Shown: in pieces, positions 12,922 through 35,367 of the stretch
Position numbering within the stretch: the stretch's first letter is position 1
How the letters are laid out: each line of letters begins with the position of its first letter
From: Microbacterium sp. B19
GTDB lineage: Bacteria > Actinomycetota > Actinomycetes > Actinomycetales > Microbacteriaceae
Length of the DNA stretch: 36,227 nucleotides
Reading direction: 5' to 3'
NCBI RefSeq assembly: GCF_000333395.1
Contig: NZ_BADA01000110.1
Span: forward strand, 34-36,260
Program-made: the position numbers and the translations under genes
Notes under the pieces: generated by a model
The model's database searches: none
What the model saw: the letters and a program-made list of their open reading frames with translations, nothing else
What the model was told of the DNA's origin: nothing

Positions 12922-14234
12922 GCGCCGTCCTCCCCCTCGCGCGGATGCTGGCGCGACCGAGCCGCCAGGGGCGCGCGGCGATCGTGCTGCCCGTCGTCGC
13001 GTTCGCAGTGACGACGGCCCTGCTCCTCGTCGTCGCCGGCGGCGCGGCCATGTTCCTCGTCGACCCGCGCGCGGTCGCGGGCGGCGGCCTCTATGGCACG
13101 CTCGCGGTGCTCGCCCTCGTTCTGCTCGCGGTCCCGCTCGCCACCCTCGGTGCCGCCGCGGCCCGTCTGTCGAGCCGTCGCCGCAACGACCGGCTCGCCA
13201 CACTGCGCCTCCTCGGCGCGAGCACGCGCGAGATCTGGGCGCTCACGATCCTGGAGGCGACGCTCACCGCGGCCGCGGGCGCTCTCGCGGGGGTCGTGCT
13301 GTACCTCGTGCTGCTCCCGGCGGTCGGTCTGCTGCCGTTCTTCGGCGGTCCGGTCGGGATCGCGGCCGTGGCGGCCGCGCCGCTGCTCGTGGTCGGAGTG
13401 ACCGCGGCGGTGGTCGCCATCGCGGCGGTCAGCTCGGCCGCGGGACTCCGGCGCGTCACCGTCACGCCGCTGGGCGTCCGCACGCGCAGTGCCGTGCCTC
13501 CGAAGCGCTGGTGGATGCTCGTGGTCGGCGGCATCCTGATCCTGCTCGTCGCGGGAGCCGTGTCGAACGTCGGCGCGGTGCGCTCCGCGGCGATCAACGC
13601 CGTGCTCATCGGCCTGTTCGCGGCCGGCATGGCCCTGCTGAACCTCATCGGTGCGCCGATCGTCGCCGCCCGCGGACGCGCAATGGCCCGCACCGCCCCG
13701 ACGGCCGCGCGCCTCATCGCCGGCCGCGAACTCGCCGCCCACCCCGGACCCGCGTGGCGCCGGGTGTCGGGCATGGCGCTCGTGTCGTTCATCGCCGTCG
13801 TGGCCGGGAGCGGCCTGGCACTGGTCGACCTCTCCGGCGGCACGAATCCGATGCTCGCCGACATCCGCACCGGCGTGCTGGTGACGCTCGCGATCGCGTT
13901 CGTGCTCCTCTCCTGCGCGGTCGCGGTGACGCAGGCGTCCGCCGCCCTCGAGGACCGCGAGCTGATCGTGGGCCTGGACCTCCTCGGCATCCCGGATGCC
14001 GAACTCCGCCGCGCCCGCCGACTGACGGTCATGGTGCCGCTGCGGTGGGCGTCGCTCGGCGGCGCGGCCCTGGGGGCGGTCCTGGCGTTCCCGATCGTGA
14101 GCGCGAGCGTCGTCGTCGCGCCGGTGTCGATCGCGACGGTCCTGGGCACCTTCGTCGTCGGCTTCGCGCTGGTCGCCGCGGCCCTGGCATCCACTCGTCC
14201 GATCGTGAGCGGCATCCGTCGCGGCACGCTGTAG
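12918..14234 (+). CDS. FtsX-like ABC transporter permease
   Basis: Membrane protein of 438 residues with roughly eight hydrophobic helices in two groups of four (about 20-200 and 205-438), consistent with two FtsX-type modules in one chain. The cytoplasmic segment RRRNDRLATLRLLGASTREIW (about 90-110) is the classic coupling motif after the second helix of an FtsX domain; a related EDRELIVGLDLLGIPDAELRRAR recurs in the second half. No large extracytoplasmic domain is present, unlike MacB itself. Start at ATG 12918 overlaps the ATPase stop. Substrate unknown; peptide or lipid extrusion or bacitracin-like resistance would fit the family. A family A repeat starts 22 nt after the stop. Confidence 0.88.
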   Translation: MSAVLPLARMLARPSRQGRAAIVLPVVAFAVTTALLLVVAGGAAMFLVDPRAVAGGGLYGTLAVLALVLLAVPLATLGAAAARLSSRRRNDRLATLRLLGASTREIWALTILEATLTAAAGALAGVVLYLVLLPAVGLLPFFGGPVGIAAVAAAPLLVVGVTAAVVAIAAVSSAAGLRRVTVTPLGVRTRSAVPPKRWWMLVVGGILILLVAGAVSNVGAVRSAAINAVLIGLFAAGMALLNLIGAPIVAARGRAMARTAPTAARLIAGRELAAHPGPAWRRVSGMALVSFIAVVAGSGLALVDLSGGTNPMLADIRTGVLVTLAIAFVLLSCAVAVTQASAALEDRELIVGLDLLGIPDAELRRARRLTVMVPLRWASLGGAALGAVLAFPIVSASVVVAPVSIATVLGTFVVGFALVAAALASTRPIVSGIRRGTL

Positions 14235-14256
14235 GCCGGAGCGGCGTCCGGGTTGA

Positions 14257-14307
14257 GTGTCCAAGACACGCGGACCGCGGCGCGCGGCATCCGCGTGTCC
14301 TGGACAC
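14257..14307. repeat. Family A palindromic repeat, copy 1
   Basis: 51 bp: arms 14257-14274 (GTGTCCAAGACACGCGGA) and 14290-14307 (one mismatch to its complement), 15-bp spacer. Each arm contains its own dyad GTGTC-CAA-GACAC. It begins 22 nt after the permease stop and ends 60 nt before the Nudix gene. Confidence 0.85.
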
Positions 14308-14355
14308 CGAACCGGCGGGCGGCGGGCGCGACACGGGCGGGAAACGCGTCGGTGC

Positions 14356-14361
14356 TACCGT
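14356..14361 (+). promoter_or_regulatory. -10 element of leaderless Nudix mRNA
   Basis: TACCGT, then GCGGGG, then the ATG at 14368. The 6-nt spacing implies a transcript starting at the start codon. Confidence 0.5.
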
Positions 14362-14367
14362 GCGGGG

Positions 14368-14775
14368 ATGATCCCGGATGCCACGACCCCGCGCCTCATC
14401 CACGTTTCGGCGGCGGTCATCACCGACGCGGACGGGCGTCTGCTGCTCGTCCGCAAGGCCGGCACGACGGCGTTCATGCAGCCCGGCGGCAAGCCCGAGC
14501 CGGGCGAGACGCCGGCTGAGACCCTCGCGCGCGAGCTGAGCGAGGAGCTCGGGCTGCGCGTGGACGCCACGACCGCCGAGCCGCTCGGATCCTTCACCGC
14601 CTCCGCGGCGAACGAGCCCGGCTTCGCGGTGGTCGCGGACGTGTTCCGCGTCGACATCGGCGACCAGCAGCCGGTCCCGGATGCCGAGATCGCCGAGCTC
14701 CGCTGGGTCACCGCCGCAACGGCATCCGGTCTGGAGATCGCCCCACTCGCGCAGGAGTACTTCCTGCCGTCCTGA
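14368..14775 (+). CDS. Nudix (MutT-type) hydrolase
   Basis: Protein of 135 residues with an exact Nudix box: G-x5-E from GGKPEPGE, then x7, then RELSEELGL (R-E-U-x-E-E-x-G-U). Nudix enzymes cleave nucleoside diphosphates linked to another moiety with Mg2+ held by the box glutamates. The preceding FMQPGGKPE resembles small cytosolic 'housecleaning' members, but the substrate cannot be told from sequence. Start at ATG 14368, set by the leaderless promoter and by HVSAAVITDADGRLLLVRK, the first strand of the fold. It stands alone, with family A repeats on both sides. Confidence 0.9.
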   Translation: MIPDATTPRLIHVSAAVITDADGRLLLVRKAGTTAFMQPGGKPEPGETPAETLARELSEELGLRVDATTAEPLGSFTASAANEPGFAVVADVFRVDIGDQQPVPDAEIAELRWVTAATASGLEIAPLAQEYFLPS

Positions 14776-14803
14776 CGGGTCGCGCGGCCCCCGGCACCGC
14801 CGA

Positions 14804-14855
14804 GTGTCCAGAACACGCCGCATCGCGACCGCACCTGACGGCGTGTCCTGGACAC
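14804..14855. repeat. Family A palindromic repeat, copy 2 (CGCCG subtype)
   Basis: 52 bp from GTGTCCAGAACACGCCG to CGGCGTGTCCTGGACAC with an 18-bp spacer and one mismatch between arms. It begins 28 nt after the Nudix stop. It forms a tandem pair with copy 3, whose start is 83 bp further on. Confidence 0.85.
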
Positions 14856-14886
14856 TGGGCCGGAATCCCCCGCCGCCCCCGCTTCG

Positions 14887-14937
14887 GTGTCCAAGACACG
14901 CGGATGCCACGGCGCCACGTCCGCGTGTCTTGGACAC
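14887..14937. repeat. Family A palindromic repeat, copy 3
   Basis: 51 bp with perfect 18-bp arms (14887-14904, 14920-14937) and a 15-bp spacer that is itself nearly palindromic (GGCGCC centre). The right flank ACTCAAC is shared with copies 4 and 5. Confidence 0.9.
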
Positions 14938-14976
14938 TCAACCGGCAGGAGCGCGCGGCGGGACCCGGCGTCCGCG

Positions 14977-14982
14977 TACGCT
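14977..14982 (+). promoter_or_regulatory. -10 element of leaderless mRNA for the unknown 116-aa protein
   Basis: TACGCT followed by 6 nt (gaccgg) and the GTG at 14989. It fixes the start of this gene, since the frame itself stays open through the upstream repeat. Confidence 0.5.
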
Positions 14983-14988
14983 GACCGG

Positions 14989-15339
14989 GTGCGTGAGGAC
15001 TGGATCGAACACCGCCGCGCGGGCGACGGCGAACTGCTCGGCTGGATCGAGCCCGCGGGCGAGGACTTCGTCGCGATCGACCTGCTCGGACACCGCCGCA
15101 CCGACCCGGTCGACTGGCTGACGGCCGAGGAGACCCTCGACGCGCTCGGCATCTCGTACCTTGCGGACCTCTTCGACCTCCGCCTCGACGACGGGTCGTG
15201 GCTGCGGGTGCGGATCGCCGAGGTGTCGGTCGGGGGCATCCGGGTGAAGAAGGACGACTTCGGCGCCGTCGGCGCGCCCCAGCTGTACTACGACGTGGCG
15301 TTCCCGGTCGACCCCGAGCGACTCCGCCCCGCGCGCTGA
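14989..15339 (+). CDS. Conserved-looking small protein of unknown function
   Basis: Acidic soluble protein of 116 residues (VREDWIEHRRAGDGE... ending PERLRPAR) without signal peptide, membrane segment or recognisable catalytic motif. The pattern of short strands (GELLGWIEPAGEDFVAIDLLG; GSWLRVRIAEVSVGGIRVKKDD) suggests a small beta-rich fold. Codon use is like its neighbours, so it is a real gene. The open frame runs upstream through a repeat, but the leaderless -10 at 14977 and the gene-like composition point to GTG 14989. It is bracketed on both sides by near-identical pairs of family A repeats. I do not recognise the family. Confidence 0.7.
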   Translation: MREDWIEHRRAGDGELLGWIEPAGEDFVAIDLLGHRRTDPVDWLTAEETLDALGISYLADLFDLRLDDGSWLRVRIAEVSVGGIRVKKDDFGAVGAPQLYYDVAFPVDPERLRPAR

Positions 15340-15365
15340 GCCCTCGGCGCGTCCTCTCGCGCTGA

Positions 15366-15417
15366 GTGTCCAGAACACGCCGCACCGCGCGCACGCCCAA
15401 CGGCGTGTCTTGGACAC
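15366..15417. repeat. Family A palindromic repeat, copy 4 (CGCCG subtype)
   Basis: 52 bp, GTGTCCAGAACACGCCG ... CGGCGTGTCTTGGACAC, 18-bp spacer, two mismatches between arms. It begins 26 nt after the stop of the unknown gene. Paired with copy 5 at an offset of 84 bp, almost the same as copies 2-3. Confidence 0.85.
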
Positions 15418-15449
15418 TCAACAGGAATCCGGCGCCACGCCGACGTTCA

Positions 15450-15500
15450 GTGTCCAGAACACGCGGACGCCGCGGCGGCACGTCCGCGTGTCTTGGACAC
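15450..15500. repeat. Family A palindromic repeat, copy 5
   Basis: 51 bp, arms 15450-15467 and 15483-15500, 15-bp spacer. It ends 29 nt from the stop of the convergent SDR gene, so copies 4 and 5 each sit just behind one of two converging genes. Confidence 0.85.
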
Positions 15501-15529
15501 TCAACGAAGAGCCGGCACCGCCCGCCGCC

Positions 15530-17017
15530 TCACCACGAGCTCTTGCGGTAGTCCTTCAGGAAGATGCCGAAGAGGTCCTCGCCCGCCTCGCCGCGCACGA
15601 TCGGGTCGTACACGCGGGCGGCGCCGTCGACGAGGTCGAGCGGGGCGTGGAAGCCCTCCTCGGCCAGGCGGACCTTGGTGTAGTGCGGGCGCTCGTCGGT
15701 GATCCAGCCGGTGTCGACGGCGGTCATCAGGATGCCGTCGGACTCGAACATCTCGCGGGCGCTCGTGCGCGTGAGCATGTTCAGCGCGGCCTTGGCCATG
15801 TTGGTGTGCGGGTGTCCGGGGCCCTTGTATCCGCGGCCGAAGACGCCCTCCATCGCCGAGACGTTGACGATGTACTTCCTCCGCGCCGTCGACGCCGCCA
15901 TCGCGGGACGAAGCCGACTGACGAGCAGGAACGGAGCCGTCATGTTGGCCAGCTGCACCTCGAGCATCTCGAGGGGCTCGACCTGGTCGACGTGCTGCGT
16001 CCAGCTGTTGATGCGGTCCTCGTCGGGGACGAGGCCGCCCGCGTCGATCGCGGTACCCGCGGCCAGCCGCTCGAGCGACGACGACCCGGCGGCCATCGCC
16101 TCGGCGGTGAGCTCCTCGGCCGTGCGCGCGGCCGACGCGAGGATCGGATGCGCCGACACCGACTGCGCCAGCGCGAGCGGGTGGGCGTCGTTGGTGTGGC
16201 CGAACGTGACCAGCTCGGGCAGCGGTCCGTCGGGGAGCGGCGAGAGTTCGGCATCCACCAGGGGTTTGTACGCACCCGGCGAGCGCCGCACGGTCTGCGC
16301 GGCGTTGTTGATGAGGATGTCGAGCGGACCATCGGATGCCACCGACTCGGCGAGTCCGATGACCTGGGCGGGGTCGCGCAGGTCGATGCCGACGATCTTG
16401 AGGCGGTGTAGCCAGTCCGCACTGTCGGGGAGCGACGAGAAACGGCGCACGGCGTCGCGCGGGAAGCGGGTCGTGATCGTCGTGTGGGCGCCGTCGCGCA
16501 GCAGTCGCAGCGCGATGTACATGCCGATCTTCGCGCGGCCGCCGGTGAGCAGCGCGCGCTTGCCGGTGAGGTCGGTGCGGGCGTCGCGCTTGGCGTGACT
16601 CATCGCCGCGCAGGACGGGCACAGCTGGTGGTAGAACGCGTCGACGAGCGTGTACAGCTCTTTGCAGATGTAGCAGTTGCGGGCCTTGAGGAGTTCGCCG
16701 GCGTACGGCGTCTCGACGCGCGTCGCGAGGGGGATGCCGCGCGTCTCGTCGTCGATGCGGTCGGGCGCACCGGTCGCGGTCGCGGCGACCACGGCCTTGT
16801 CGGCGTCGGCGATGCGCTGGCGCTTCTCCTTGCGCGACTGCCGCTTGACGTCCTTGTAGAGCTTGCCGGTCTGGCGGCGCAGCGCGATGTAGGCCGGATC
16901 CTCGGGGTCGAGGGCCGACGCCGCGTCGAGCACGCGCAGCGCGATCTCGAGCTCATGGGGATCGATGGATGCCACGCGGCCGGCCTCGCGATCGGGTCTC
17001 GGAAGTGTTTCGGGCAC
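15530..17017 (-). CDS. SDR-family oxidoreductase with N-terminal zinc-ribbon-like motif
   Basis: Protein of 495 residues, about twice a normal short-chain dehydrogenase. Residues 1-110 are a basic helical region; 115-136 carry Cys115-x2-Cys118 and Cys133-x2-Cys136 (NCYICKE, CPSCAAM), a probable zinc site. The Rossmann domain starts at 152 with TGGRAKIG (158-165, replacing TGxxxGIG), then LINNAA (235-240) and the active-site Ser387 in VNVSAMEG. The usual YxxxK reads Thr405-N-M-A-Lys409, so the catalytic Tyr is missing at its normal place; Tyr397 is a possible substitute. Start at GTG 17017, set by the TACACT -10 five nt upstream. The oxidised substrate is unknown. Confidence 0.85.
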   Translation of the reverse strand: MPETLPRPDREAGRVASIDPHELEIALRVLDAASALDPEDPAYIALRRQTGKLYKDVKRQSRKEKRQRIADADKAVVAATATGAPDRIDDETRGIPLATRVETPYAGELLKARNCYICKELYTLVDAFYHQLCPSCAAMSHAKRDARTDLTGKRALLTGGRAKIGMYIALRLLRDGAHTTITTRFPRDAVRRFSSLPDSADWLHRLKIVGIDLRDPAQVIGLAESVASDGPLDILINNAAQTVRRSPGAYKPLVDAELSPLPDGPLPELVTFGHTNDAHPLALAQSVSAHPILASAARTAEELTAEAMAAGSSSLERLAAGTAIDAGGLVPDEDRINSWTQHVDQVEPLEMLEVQLANMTAPFLLVSRLRPAMAASTARRKYIVNVSAMEGVFGRGYKGPGHPHTNMAKAALNMLTRTSAREMFESDGILMTAVDTGWITDERPHYTKVRLAEEGFHAPLDLVDGAARVYDPIVRGEAGEDLFGIFLKDYRKSSW

Positions 17018-17022
17018 GGGAG

Positions 17023-17028
17023 AGTGTA
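17023..17028 (-). promoter_or_regulatory. -10 element of (near-)leaderless SDR mRNA
   Basis: On the minus strand TACACT is followed by 5 nt (CTCCC) and the GTG at 17017. No SD-like sequence lies between. Confidence 0.45.
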
Positions 17029-17078
17029 CCGAGGCCCGGCTGGGAGGCGCCCCGGGCGGCACTCCGCCCCGGGTTTCG

Positions 17079-17129
17079 GTGTCCAAGACACGCGGACCGT
17101 GCCGAGCGGCATCCGCGTGTTCTGGACAC
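17079..17129. repeat. Family A palindromic repeat, copy 6
   Basis: 51 bp, arms 17079-17096 and 17112-17129, 15-bp spacer, one mismatch. It lies 68 nt behind the acyltransferase stop and upstream of the SDR promoter, so it could insulate the two minus-strand genes. Confidence 0.85.
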
Positions 17130-17197
17130 TGAACGCGGCGCCGACGTCCGCCGAGACGCCTCTCAGCGCGCCGCCTGTTCCCGGCCCAGCACCGCGT

Positions 17198-18367: not shown

Positions 18368-18512
18368 CGCCTCCCGGAACGCTCGCGTCGGCAGCGCGGA
18401 GCCGCTCCGACGCCGGAACGTTACCCGTTCGTGATGAGGAGAAGCCTGAGAAGGCCTGGGCTTGACGCGGGGGCGGGGGCGATGGCATCCAGTCCTCCCT
18501 CGGGGTGGCCCA

Positions 18513-18748
18513 TGTCCCCCTTCGTGCAGTCGCAGCACCCGAAACCTGCACAAACTGGGACACCGGATGCCACCCACCCGACGCCACAGCCCACCCCACA
18601 CCGCATGTCCCACTTTGTGCAGCCACAGCCCCCCAAACCTGCACAAACTGGGACACCGGATGCCCCCCACCCGACGCCGCAGCCCACCCCACGCCGCATG
18701 TCCCACTTTGTGCAGCCACAGCCCCAAAAACCTGCACAAACTGGGACA
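18513..18748. repeat. Family C: three palindromes in a 93-bp tandem array
   Basis: Units at 18513-18562, 18606-18655 and 18699-18748, each 50 bp: a left arm TGTCCCACTTTGTGCAG (copy 1 differs at two positions), a 16-bp spacer and a right arm CTGCACAAACTGGGACA that is its complement except one base. The period is exactly 93 bp, and the 43-bp linkers are also repeated. The array ends 21 nt from the TetR stop (18770). No gene is seen in the surrounding gap 18368-18769. Confidence 0.9.
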
Positions 18749-18769
18749 CGGGATGCCGCCCGCTGCGGT

Positions 18770-21690: not shown

Positions 21691-21725
21691 GGCGTTGCGC
21701 GCGGATGCCGCGGCGCCCCGGGCGT

Positions 21726-21795
21726 GCGGAGGAGATCCGGCCAGCAGAGGGCCATCCGCCCGGCATCCACCCTCCGCTCCCCGAATCCCCTCCCG
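21726..21795. repeat. Family B nested repeat, copy 1
   Basis: About 70 bp starting GCGGAGGAGATCCGG and ending CCGAATCCCCTCCCG, with an inner GGCATCC and CCTCCGC. Nearly identical (two differences) to copy 2, 152 bp downstream. Outer and inner segments form GGAGGA/TCCTCC-type dyads, clearest in copy 4. Confidence 0.8.
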
Positions 21796-21877
21796 TCGCG
21801 TGACGTCAAGAAGGCCGCACGCAGTGCGTACCGAAACCAGTGCTGAGCCGGAACCCGGATGCCACGGCCCACCGCGA

Positions 21878-21947
21878 GCGGAGGAAATCCGGCCAGCAGA
21901 GGGCCATCCGCCCGGCATCCATCCTCCGCTCCCCGAATCCCCTCCCG
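21878..21947. repeat. Family B nested repeat, copy 2
   Basis: Same ~70-bp sequence as copy 1 apart from two transitions. It ends 11 bp before the first possible start of the acetyltransferase gene. Confidence 0.8.
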
Positions 21948-21958
21948 CTGCGTGCCGA

Positions 21959-32172: not shown

Positions 32173-32250
32173 AAACCACGTTCGGCATCGAGCGCAAGAG
32201 GTAAGTTGGCGCGGGCAACAAAATCGGGGGTCGCTGCCGGCCCCGGGCGA

Positions 32251-32320
32251 GCAGAGGAGATTCGGGCAGCGGAGGCGCCTCGGGCTGGCATCCATCCTCC
32301 GGTCCCCGGATCTCCTCCCC
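32251..32320. repeat. Family B nested repeat, copy 3
   Basis: About 70 bp, GCAGAGGAGATTCGGGCAGCGG ... shortened here; right end GGTCCCCGGATCTCCTCC. The internal TGGCATCCATCCTCC matches copy 2. It lies between lacI and the divergent HAD-like gene, 30 bp before the latter. Confidence 0.7.
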
Positions 32321-32349
32321 CACCGGACGCCTCCTGGCAGACTGCGGGG

Positions 32350-35154: not shown

Positions 35155-35213
35155 CGCGCGGTCCTCCGGTGGGGCTCGGGAGGCACCATCGTACGGCCGG
35201 CGGGGCAGTGCGA

Positions 35214-35283
35214 GCGGAGGAGATTCCGCGTGCGGAGGACGAATCGGGCGGCATCCGTCCTCCGCTCACCGTTTCTCCTCCGC
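35214..35283. repeat. Family B nested repeat, copy 4 (best dyads)
   Basis: Outer arms GCGGAGGAGA (35214-35223) and TCTCCTCCGC (35274-35283), perfect; inner arms GCGGAGGAC (35232-35240) and GTCCTCCGC (35257-35265), perfect. Thus GCGGAGGA appears twice directly and twice inverted within 70 bp. It sits between the divergent pdxH and Old Yellow Enzyme genes. Confidence 0.85.
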
Positions 35284-35367
35284 TCTTCCCGCCGACGATG
35301 AGGAATACCCGCCACACGCAGCGGGTTGGGAACACGCGGCCCTGTTCCCCCACGAAAGGACACCCGC

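Follow-up and report, generated by a model that had tools for sequence, protein, structure and literature searches.

The window analysed here is a stretch of 36,227 nucleotides of Microbacterium sp. B19 (contig NZ_BADA01000110.1 of assembly GCF_000333395.1, hereafter G000: 3.65 Mb in 576 contigs, 87% complete). Four of its intergenic gaps hold six copies of a palindromic repeat, called family A in what follows (Table 1). An earlier reading of the sequence alone had placed six copies of 51-52 bp in this region, and all six were recovered with the same lengths. In each element a middle that varies between copies is flanked by two inverted arms, GTGTCCARRACACGC followed by GGA or CG, for a total of 51 or 52 bp. 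Genes were called with a codon model begun from an amino-acid prior, and were not taken from an annotation.

Table 1. Repeats and intergenic gaps of the window (positions are those of the window)
Feature	Positions	Strand	Description
Family A element	14257..14307	.	51 bp, GCGGA class; begins 22 bp past the stop of the + strand gene ending at 14234
Family A element	14804..14855	.	52 bp, GCCG class; opens a heterotypic doublet completed by the 14887 copy
Family A element	14887..14937	.	51 bp, GCGGA class; second doublet half, gap 31 bp
Family A element	15366..15417	.	52 bp, GCCG class; first half of the second doublet, convergent gap
Family A element	15450..15500	.	51 bp, GCGGA class; second doublet half, gap 32 bp; ortholog in G009
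Family A element	17079..17129	.	51 bp, GCGGA class
Intergenic slot 1	14235..14367	.	co-directional genes; from our own gene calls and slot comparison
Intergenic slot 2	14776..14988	.	co-directional; 52+51 doublet
Intergenic slot 3	15340..15529	.	convergent; 52+51 doublet
Intergenic slot 4	16976..17197	.	co-directional, both genes on the - strand
Family B, three tandem 93-bp units	18512-18563, 18605-18656, 18698-18749		RTGTCCC-NNNN-YGTGCR arms; exactly 52 bp between outer hexamer ends
91-bp direct repeat family, GCGGAGGAGAT-type ends	21715-21805, 21867-21957, 32240-32330, 35203-35293		the 35203-35293 copy contains an inverted repeat of about 75 bp

Counts of the arm GTGTCYWRRACACGC in the G000 assembly are 42 on the forward and 47 on the reverse strand, i.e. 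89 against none for the pattern read backwards, which excludes chance; backwards-pattern controls and the length histogram given below rule out base composition as well. Two-arm elements, allowing at most 3 mismatches over both 15-base arms, were called in 300,645 bp of G000 (the window and stretches L001-L030). This yielded 51 elements (52 bp in 28, 51 bp in 23), so that the genome contains at least 51, a count that leaves out poorer-armed copies and the DNA outside these 300,645 bp. Positions -4 to 6 read mostly G-T-Y-S-R-GTGTCC, the first six bases being GTGTCC. The dyad that the sequence-only reading attributed to each arm pairs bases 1-5 with 9-13; 79 of 102 arms have it in exact form and the others do not, which makes it frequent, not obligatory. 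Mirror symmetry between the two arms is imperfect: in 35 of the 51 elements the base immediately inward of the arm is C at one end but T at the opposite end, with no clear strand bias in the orientation of this asymmetry (12 vs 7). Some ends read GTTGAGT/ACTCAAC, as in integron attC sites; this candidate was set aside on inspection, the GTTCA and GTTCG ends being a misfit and the box order reversed.

The total length is strictly kept. Outer hexamer pairs GTGTCC/GGACAC lying 12-200 bp apart in the G000 stretches have two main lengths, 51 bp (21 pairs) and 52 bp (23 pairs); a further peak, 22 pairs at 13 bp, corresponds to the small dyad within the arm, and no other length is represented by more than 3. 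Among the nearest inverted pairs of whole arms (at most 2 mismatches, within 200 bp), 51 of the 53 in G000 span 51-52 bp, 62 of the 66 in a closely related second species, G009, span 50-52 bp, and 34 of the 37 in stretches from G007, G131 and G286 span 52 bp; the remaining pairs, at 92-173 bp, presumably join arms of adjacent elements. A scan of named genomes in which 46-56 bp were allowed gave at least 113 stretches, a lower bound that makes no statement on other genera. Among the matches listed, 150 in 113 stretches, 96 are of 51 bp, 53 of 52 bp and one of 50 bp; the 80 stretches listed, of the at least 113, hold 63 of 51 bp and 39 of 52 bp, and by title 74 of these 80 are Microbacterium, the other 6 belonging to a single 'Actinomycetales bacterium' assembly.

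Two subtypes tied to length had been proposed for the six copies. In G000 the link is nearly complete, elements of 51 bp having CGCGGA arms and those of 52 bp CGCCG arms, with one exception (L026:15506, 51 bp with CGCCG), and it extends to the closest kin. It fails genus-wide, where 52 bp elements with CGCGG arms and 51 bp elements with CGCCG arms are both common; among the matches listed, the CGCGG arms of G048 go with 52 bp, and the CGCCG arms of G110 and G301 mostly with 51 bp. As other genomes pair arm class and length differently, an element's length does not simply follow from the arm type it inherited. The suggestion that the arms are mostly compensated also stands in part: classes change on both arms together, but the inner-base asymmetry is not compensated and position 16 of the two arms carries unlike bases, with the length kept, in 21 of the 150 matches listed in named records.

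The search for the arm across Microbacterium, proposed with the original observation, gave exact two-arm copies in 32 of 295 genomes, and none in any of them for the backwards control. Copy numbers range from 0 to 55 and tandem arrays occur. Within the order, the arm is present in 13 of 98 genomes (the window's own included): 12 belong to the genus and one single arm lies elsewhere. A one-gene tree of 48 genomes was built from 29 of the 32 carriers (G278, which has 13 copies, G183 and G195 gave no usable hit) and from 19 of the 263 non-carriers, chosen as nearest relatives. In this tree 15 of the 16 genomes with at least 5 exact copies fall in one clade of 26, 25 of which carry at least one; the exception is G269, with 39 copies and relatives that have 0-2.

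Copies favour the 3' ends of genes and are mostly intergenic. In G000 and G009 together, 44 elements were found in 16.9 kb of convergent gaps, 56 in 47.4 kb of co-directional gaps and 10 in 25.2 kb of divergent gaps; only the ratios between gap types are meaningful, because the stretches were chosen for holding elements. One element of the two genomes lies within a predicted gene, and one of the 51 G000 elements overlaps a predicted gene. Family A is thus neither limited to a few copies nor indifferent to gene boundaries, two outcomes that would have spoken against the repeat family first suspected; as for a third, identity to a catalogued repeat, no paper on this family was found among the open-access papers listed by the searches, and none containing the core 13-mer.

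Conservation was compared in orthologous copies. In 23 equal-length pairs from G000 and G009, mismatches amount to 31/690 (4.5%) in the arms, 70/351 (20%) in the loops and 154/368 (42%) at flank positions 7-14. Pairs of unlike length make up 9 of 32: eight are class differences of 52 to 51 bp and one goes from 52 to 50 bp; 2 of the 9 sit in multi-copy gaps, where the pairing may be wrong. A tenth pair (L026:15506) has changed class on both arms at the same length, with much of the loop retained. By comparison, 37 of 56 homologous 21-base flank windows contain a gap (Fisher p 0.0008), a proportion that may be inflated because flank alignments were anchored on one side only. Length changes are rarer within loops than in flanks.

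The gaps themselves were then followed between species. G000 has 41 element-bearing gaps, of which 31 were mapped to G009 DNA, namely to the stretches around G009's own elements; the 10 unmapped gaps were looked up separately. A called element is present in both genomes in 29 of the 31, the two others being a decayed copy (L014:6102) and the gap of the 17079 copy. The two genomes have equal element numbers in 19 of the 31; G009 has more in 7 and fewer in 5. With regard to the insertion polymorphism that had been proposed as a check, numbers differ in 12 of 31 mapped gaps and classes switch, but no clean insertion at a new site was seen between G000 and G009 or G053 among the compared gaps. On the evidence of these alignments, arm classes often change in orthologous gaps that mostly keep their element.

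The gaps of the window show the range of states. That of the 14257 copy is also filled in all five further genomes mapped (G009, G188, G131, G282, G007). The G009 ortholog of the 14804 copy is 52 bp long with two arm bases altered at one end, and G009 has no counterpart of the 15366 copy. Intergenic slot 3 holds a 52 bp copy alone in G142 and G319, 52+51 in G000 and a 51 bp copy alone in G009; G209 has a 51 bp copy with CCGGA arms and G286 no family A copy. The gap of the 17079 copy contains a full 51 bp copy in G027 and a copy minus one base in G236, a different palindrome of a GAACAGG-word family instead of family A in G007, G282, G188 and G110 (L115, L121, L126, L124), and 1,074 bp of other DNA in G009. 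The named stretches of this comparison entered because they hold elements, a bias from which loci fetched by gene homology are free. One such locus, the NUDIX/SDR junction, was mapped with both anchors in 18 of 30 genomes: counted by eye, family A is present in 11, another palindrome in 2 (G306, G011), another repeat in 1 (G258) and neither in 4 (G053, G016, G048, G202). A CTTCGACAGGCTCAGGGACC-type repeat was seen twice in these loci, as an array in L114 (G286, slot 3) and as a piece in L125 (G258, NUDIX/SDR junction).

Of the neighbouring elements less than 100 bp apart, all 8 cases in G000 and 7 of the 14 in G009 combine one 52 bp and one 51 bp copy. Doublet gaps of 31-33 bp, five in G000 and three in G009, are all heterotypic, and none occurs among the 18 neighbour pairs of the other three genomes; part of the G000 and G009 doublets is common by descent. 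The sequence within these gaps differs from site to site (14855-14887 and 15417-15450 in the window; L016, L024 and L025; L088, L100 and L082 of G009). The 52+51 doublets look like intermediates of a class change, in which a new class would land beside the old one and one copy would then be lost; this order is our inference.

Loops of dispersed copies were also compared with one another. In G009, 13 elements have a loop identity of at least 0.9 to another copy, against 3.6 expected from column shuffles; in G000, 11 elements reach at least 0.85 against 2.9 expected, the excess being only in the tail. Because loops resemble each other beyond the shuffles, the 51 bp class was likely copied in the past; in G000 no recent bursts are clearly evident.

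A second family of the window, family B, also forms arrays in L018, L027, L093 and L100. It has in common with family A the outer hexamer RTGTCC, inverted arms, a total of 52-53 bp and tandem arrays; it differs in its second block, mostly YGTGCR after four variable bases, and in an arm that by inspection has no dyad of its own. Sixteen genomes with no or almost no family A were examined, and in one of them, G011, where exact A elements are absent, the GTGTCC...GGACAC pairs measure 52-53 bp in 8 of 11 cases; no such length cluster was noted in the other genomes among those listed. In G011 an A-like arm is joined to a B-like arm clearly in two 53 bp elements and loosely in a third. Since these mixed forms keep 52-53 bp, they suggest that the arms are modules and that the length ruler predates the arm classes.

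Other repeats were seen in the same DNA. A palindrome family with GAGACTGCA...TGCAGTCTC ends has an arm distance of 47 bp in 6 of 6 copies (L001:5862, L016:348, L019:5153, L026:10387, L027:1215, L028:3930). Another, CGTGAGG...CCTCACG with an inner stem around TGTCGC/GCGACA, is present in L011:9773, L023:9696 and L253, and replaces family A in one G009 gap (L253, the gap of L007:3290). The word GGATGCC occurs 774 times on both strands of the 300,645 bp, about 11 times the expectation from GC content, a fifth-order Markov model expecting 609; it is also found within genes and in several hairpins.

The mobility of repetitive extragenic palindromic (REP) doublets forming hairpins (REPINs) is, to our knowledge, attributed to REP-associated tyrosine transposases (RAYTs), which have been studied mainly in Proteobacteria. 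The sequence-only reading had noted no RAYT-type transposase in the window, and this extends to every genome tested. The Y1 transposase profile PF01797 had no match in 54 genomes at E up to 0.001, all 32 carriers included, with 5 of 14 controls positive. A second model, NF047646, was used because PF01797 covers the RAYT class only partly, according to the portion of the source consulted (PMC6006769); it had no match in 23 carriers at E up to 0.1, among them the single-contig genomes G007, G131, G195, G202, G282 and G286, with 7 of 14 controls positive and 1 above the cut-off. A divergent HUH protein may have been missed by both profiles.

The observations to be accounted for are thus a high copy number, a bias to gene 3' ends, near-invariant arms with a diverging middle and a strict length, together with arm classes that differ between species at orthologous gaps, copies gained and lost locally, and an empty outcome of the RAYT searches in the genomes covered. 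We lean, with little better than even confidence, towards the reading that the six copies belong to a REPIN-like family of Microbacterium that likely spread as units by means of a putative non-RAYT protein sensing both ends and their distance. Copying would have given rise to the 51 bp GCGGA class, followed by its expansion in the clade to which the window's species belongs. Where a 52 bp copy was already resident, a new copy would settle next to it to form a heterotypic doublet (14804/14887 and 15366/15450 being examples), and one copy would then be lost by deletion between repeated arm sequence, so that a gap could end with the new class; the bias to 3' ends would reflect where insertions are tolerated. 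More tentatively, and as a distinctly less probable extension, families A and B and the mixed forms may make up a superfamily of GTGTCC-ended 52-bp 'ruler' elements, copied by a putative protein dependent on two inverted ends set a constant distance apart. The superfamily would spread by invading gaps of an older class, the new copy often landing about 32 bp from the resident one, with the older copy of the doublet then lost and the class replaced gap by gap. The series 52 alone, 52+51 and 51 alone in one gap makes class replacement testable by strain comparison.

Several results weigh against spread by copying. No candidate mobilising enzyme emerged from the RAYT profile searches (PF01797, NF047646), and among the compared gaps no clean filled/empty pair with a target duplication was found. 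The median best loop identity of dispersed G000 copies is 0.77 against 0.76 in shuffles, so that recent dispersal is not evident in this genome. A selected function would equally leave 29 of 31 mapped gaps filled in both species. The 10 unmapped gaps did not yield such a pair either: one has a deletion of about 140 bp in G009 with the element kept in G053, one a 13-bp scar in G009 with a full copy in G053, and one a different palindrome; the rest have copies conserved in G009 or G053, a single flank, or no match. The contrast between arms and loops is not decisive alone, because inverted repeats near terminators in general also have arms steadier than loops, as far as the part of the source consulted goes (PMC13155455).

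This last pattern is what would be expected under the main rival explanation, transcription termination, which we hold possible and rather doubtful: the elements would be bidirectional terminators or mRNA 3'-end stabilisers, long RNA hairpins kept by selection, and any strong hairpin might replace another. The location at gene 3' ends and the unrelated palindromes in orthologous gaps agree with it, as does folding: the six window copies with 5 flanking bases per side are far stabler than shuffles (z -6.0 to -7.7). Intrinsic terminators are strong hairpins at gene 3' ends, a trait they share with family A. Family A departs from them in three ways: a T-run, taken as 5 of 8 bases beginning no more than 10 bases from an element end, accompanies 0 of 51 G000 elements on either side; the total length is strict, which is not required of a hairpin; and G-U pairs are not in excess, since 66 co-directional elements read on the sense strand have 57 G-U and 53 A-C mismatches, nearly equal numbers. 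The missing T-runs and this parity mean that no RNA function is visibly selected, and the hairpin or cruciform that an element could form left no sign of mattering in these counts. Mixed-arm elements that stay at 52-53 bp in G011, and orthologous gaps with no palindrome in G053 and G202, also speak against termination. A terminator scan found none on the six copies, a weak result here as it takes only loops of 3-8. In Rfam, two matches overlap an element between 12900 and 19500, both to microRNA models and far below the gathering scores (26.6 vs 69 and 21.2 vs 86 bits). Inner-base asymmetry, G-U/A-C parity and the position-16 mismatches favour, without proving it, recognition of DNA ends over RNA pairing.

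Recognition of DNA could also be that of a chromosomal protein, a nucleoid organiser or global regulator, with two half-sites whose centres are 38-39 bp apart and which are kept by contact and not copied. Strict spacing with a free middle, the lack of an RNA-pairing bias, and species differences in arm class that affect the two arms together, as if tracking a changing protein, would suit such sites. They are nevertheless unlikely, given the depletion of divergent, promoter-type gaps, the tandem arrays, the wide range of copy numbers in the genus, and the orthologous gaps that lack an element. Much less likely still is a miniature inverted-repeat transposable element of a classical insertion sequence, in which the arms would be the terminal inverted repeats of a DDE transposon of the genus: the conserved inverted ends starting with GTGTCC and the non-coding content would fit, but no target duplication was seen in the compared gaps, and the gene-called stretches of G000, G009, G007, G131 and G286 hold no pair of single family arms 500-4500 bp apart (in a list that omits pairs touching a complete element, the genes between other TGTCC pairs not being named). 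Least credible of all are canonical REPINs mobilised by a RAYT, which share the plan of the elements (PMC3116915, in the part consulted) but are disfavoured by the empty PF01797 and NF047646 searches and by the absence of a GTAG or GTGG foot.

The reading of family A as a REPIN-like family copied as units can finally be set against known repeats. The likeness to REP/REPIN elements seen in the sequence-only reading, with inverted conserved ends, a changing spacer and a fixed length, agrees with the REPIN plan as given in the consulted part of PMC3116915: many intergenic copies, two invariant inverted ends, a variable spacer and a fixed distance. The REP doublets of Pseudomonas described there have distances of 71 and 110 bp, against 51-52 bp in all for family A. 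If this plan, with its rigid two-end spacing, is indeed present in Actinobacteria with no detectable RAYT, either another enzyme moves such repeats or host selection alone keeps their regularity. The CGTC-tagged REPs, which the consulted part of PMC3733652 reports from five phyla, Actinobacteria not among them, resemble family A in being palindromic, in forming frequent inverted dimers including heterodimers, and in having no dedicated transposase known; they differ by the CGTC tag, family A ending in GTGTCC. By anatomy and dynamics, as read from the genomes compared, family A is REPIN-like, and it lies outside the RAYT-linked REPs because two defining features of that class fail in this actinobacterial family, the GTAG/GTGG at the foot of the stem and a RAYT in the genome.

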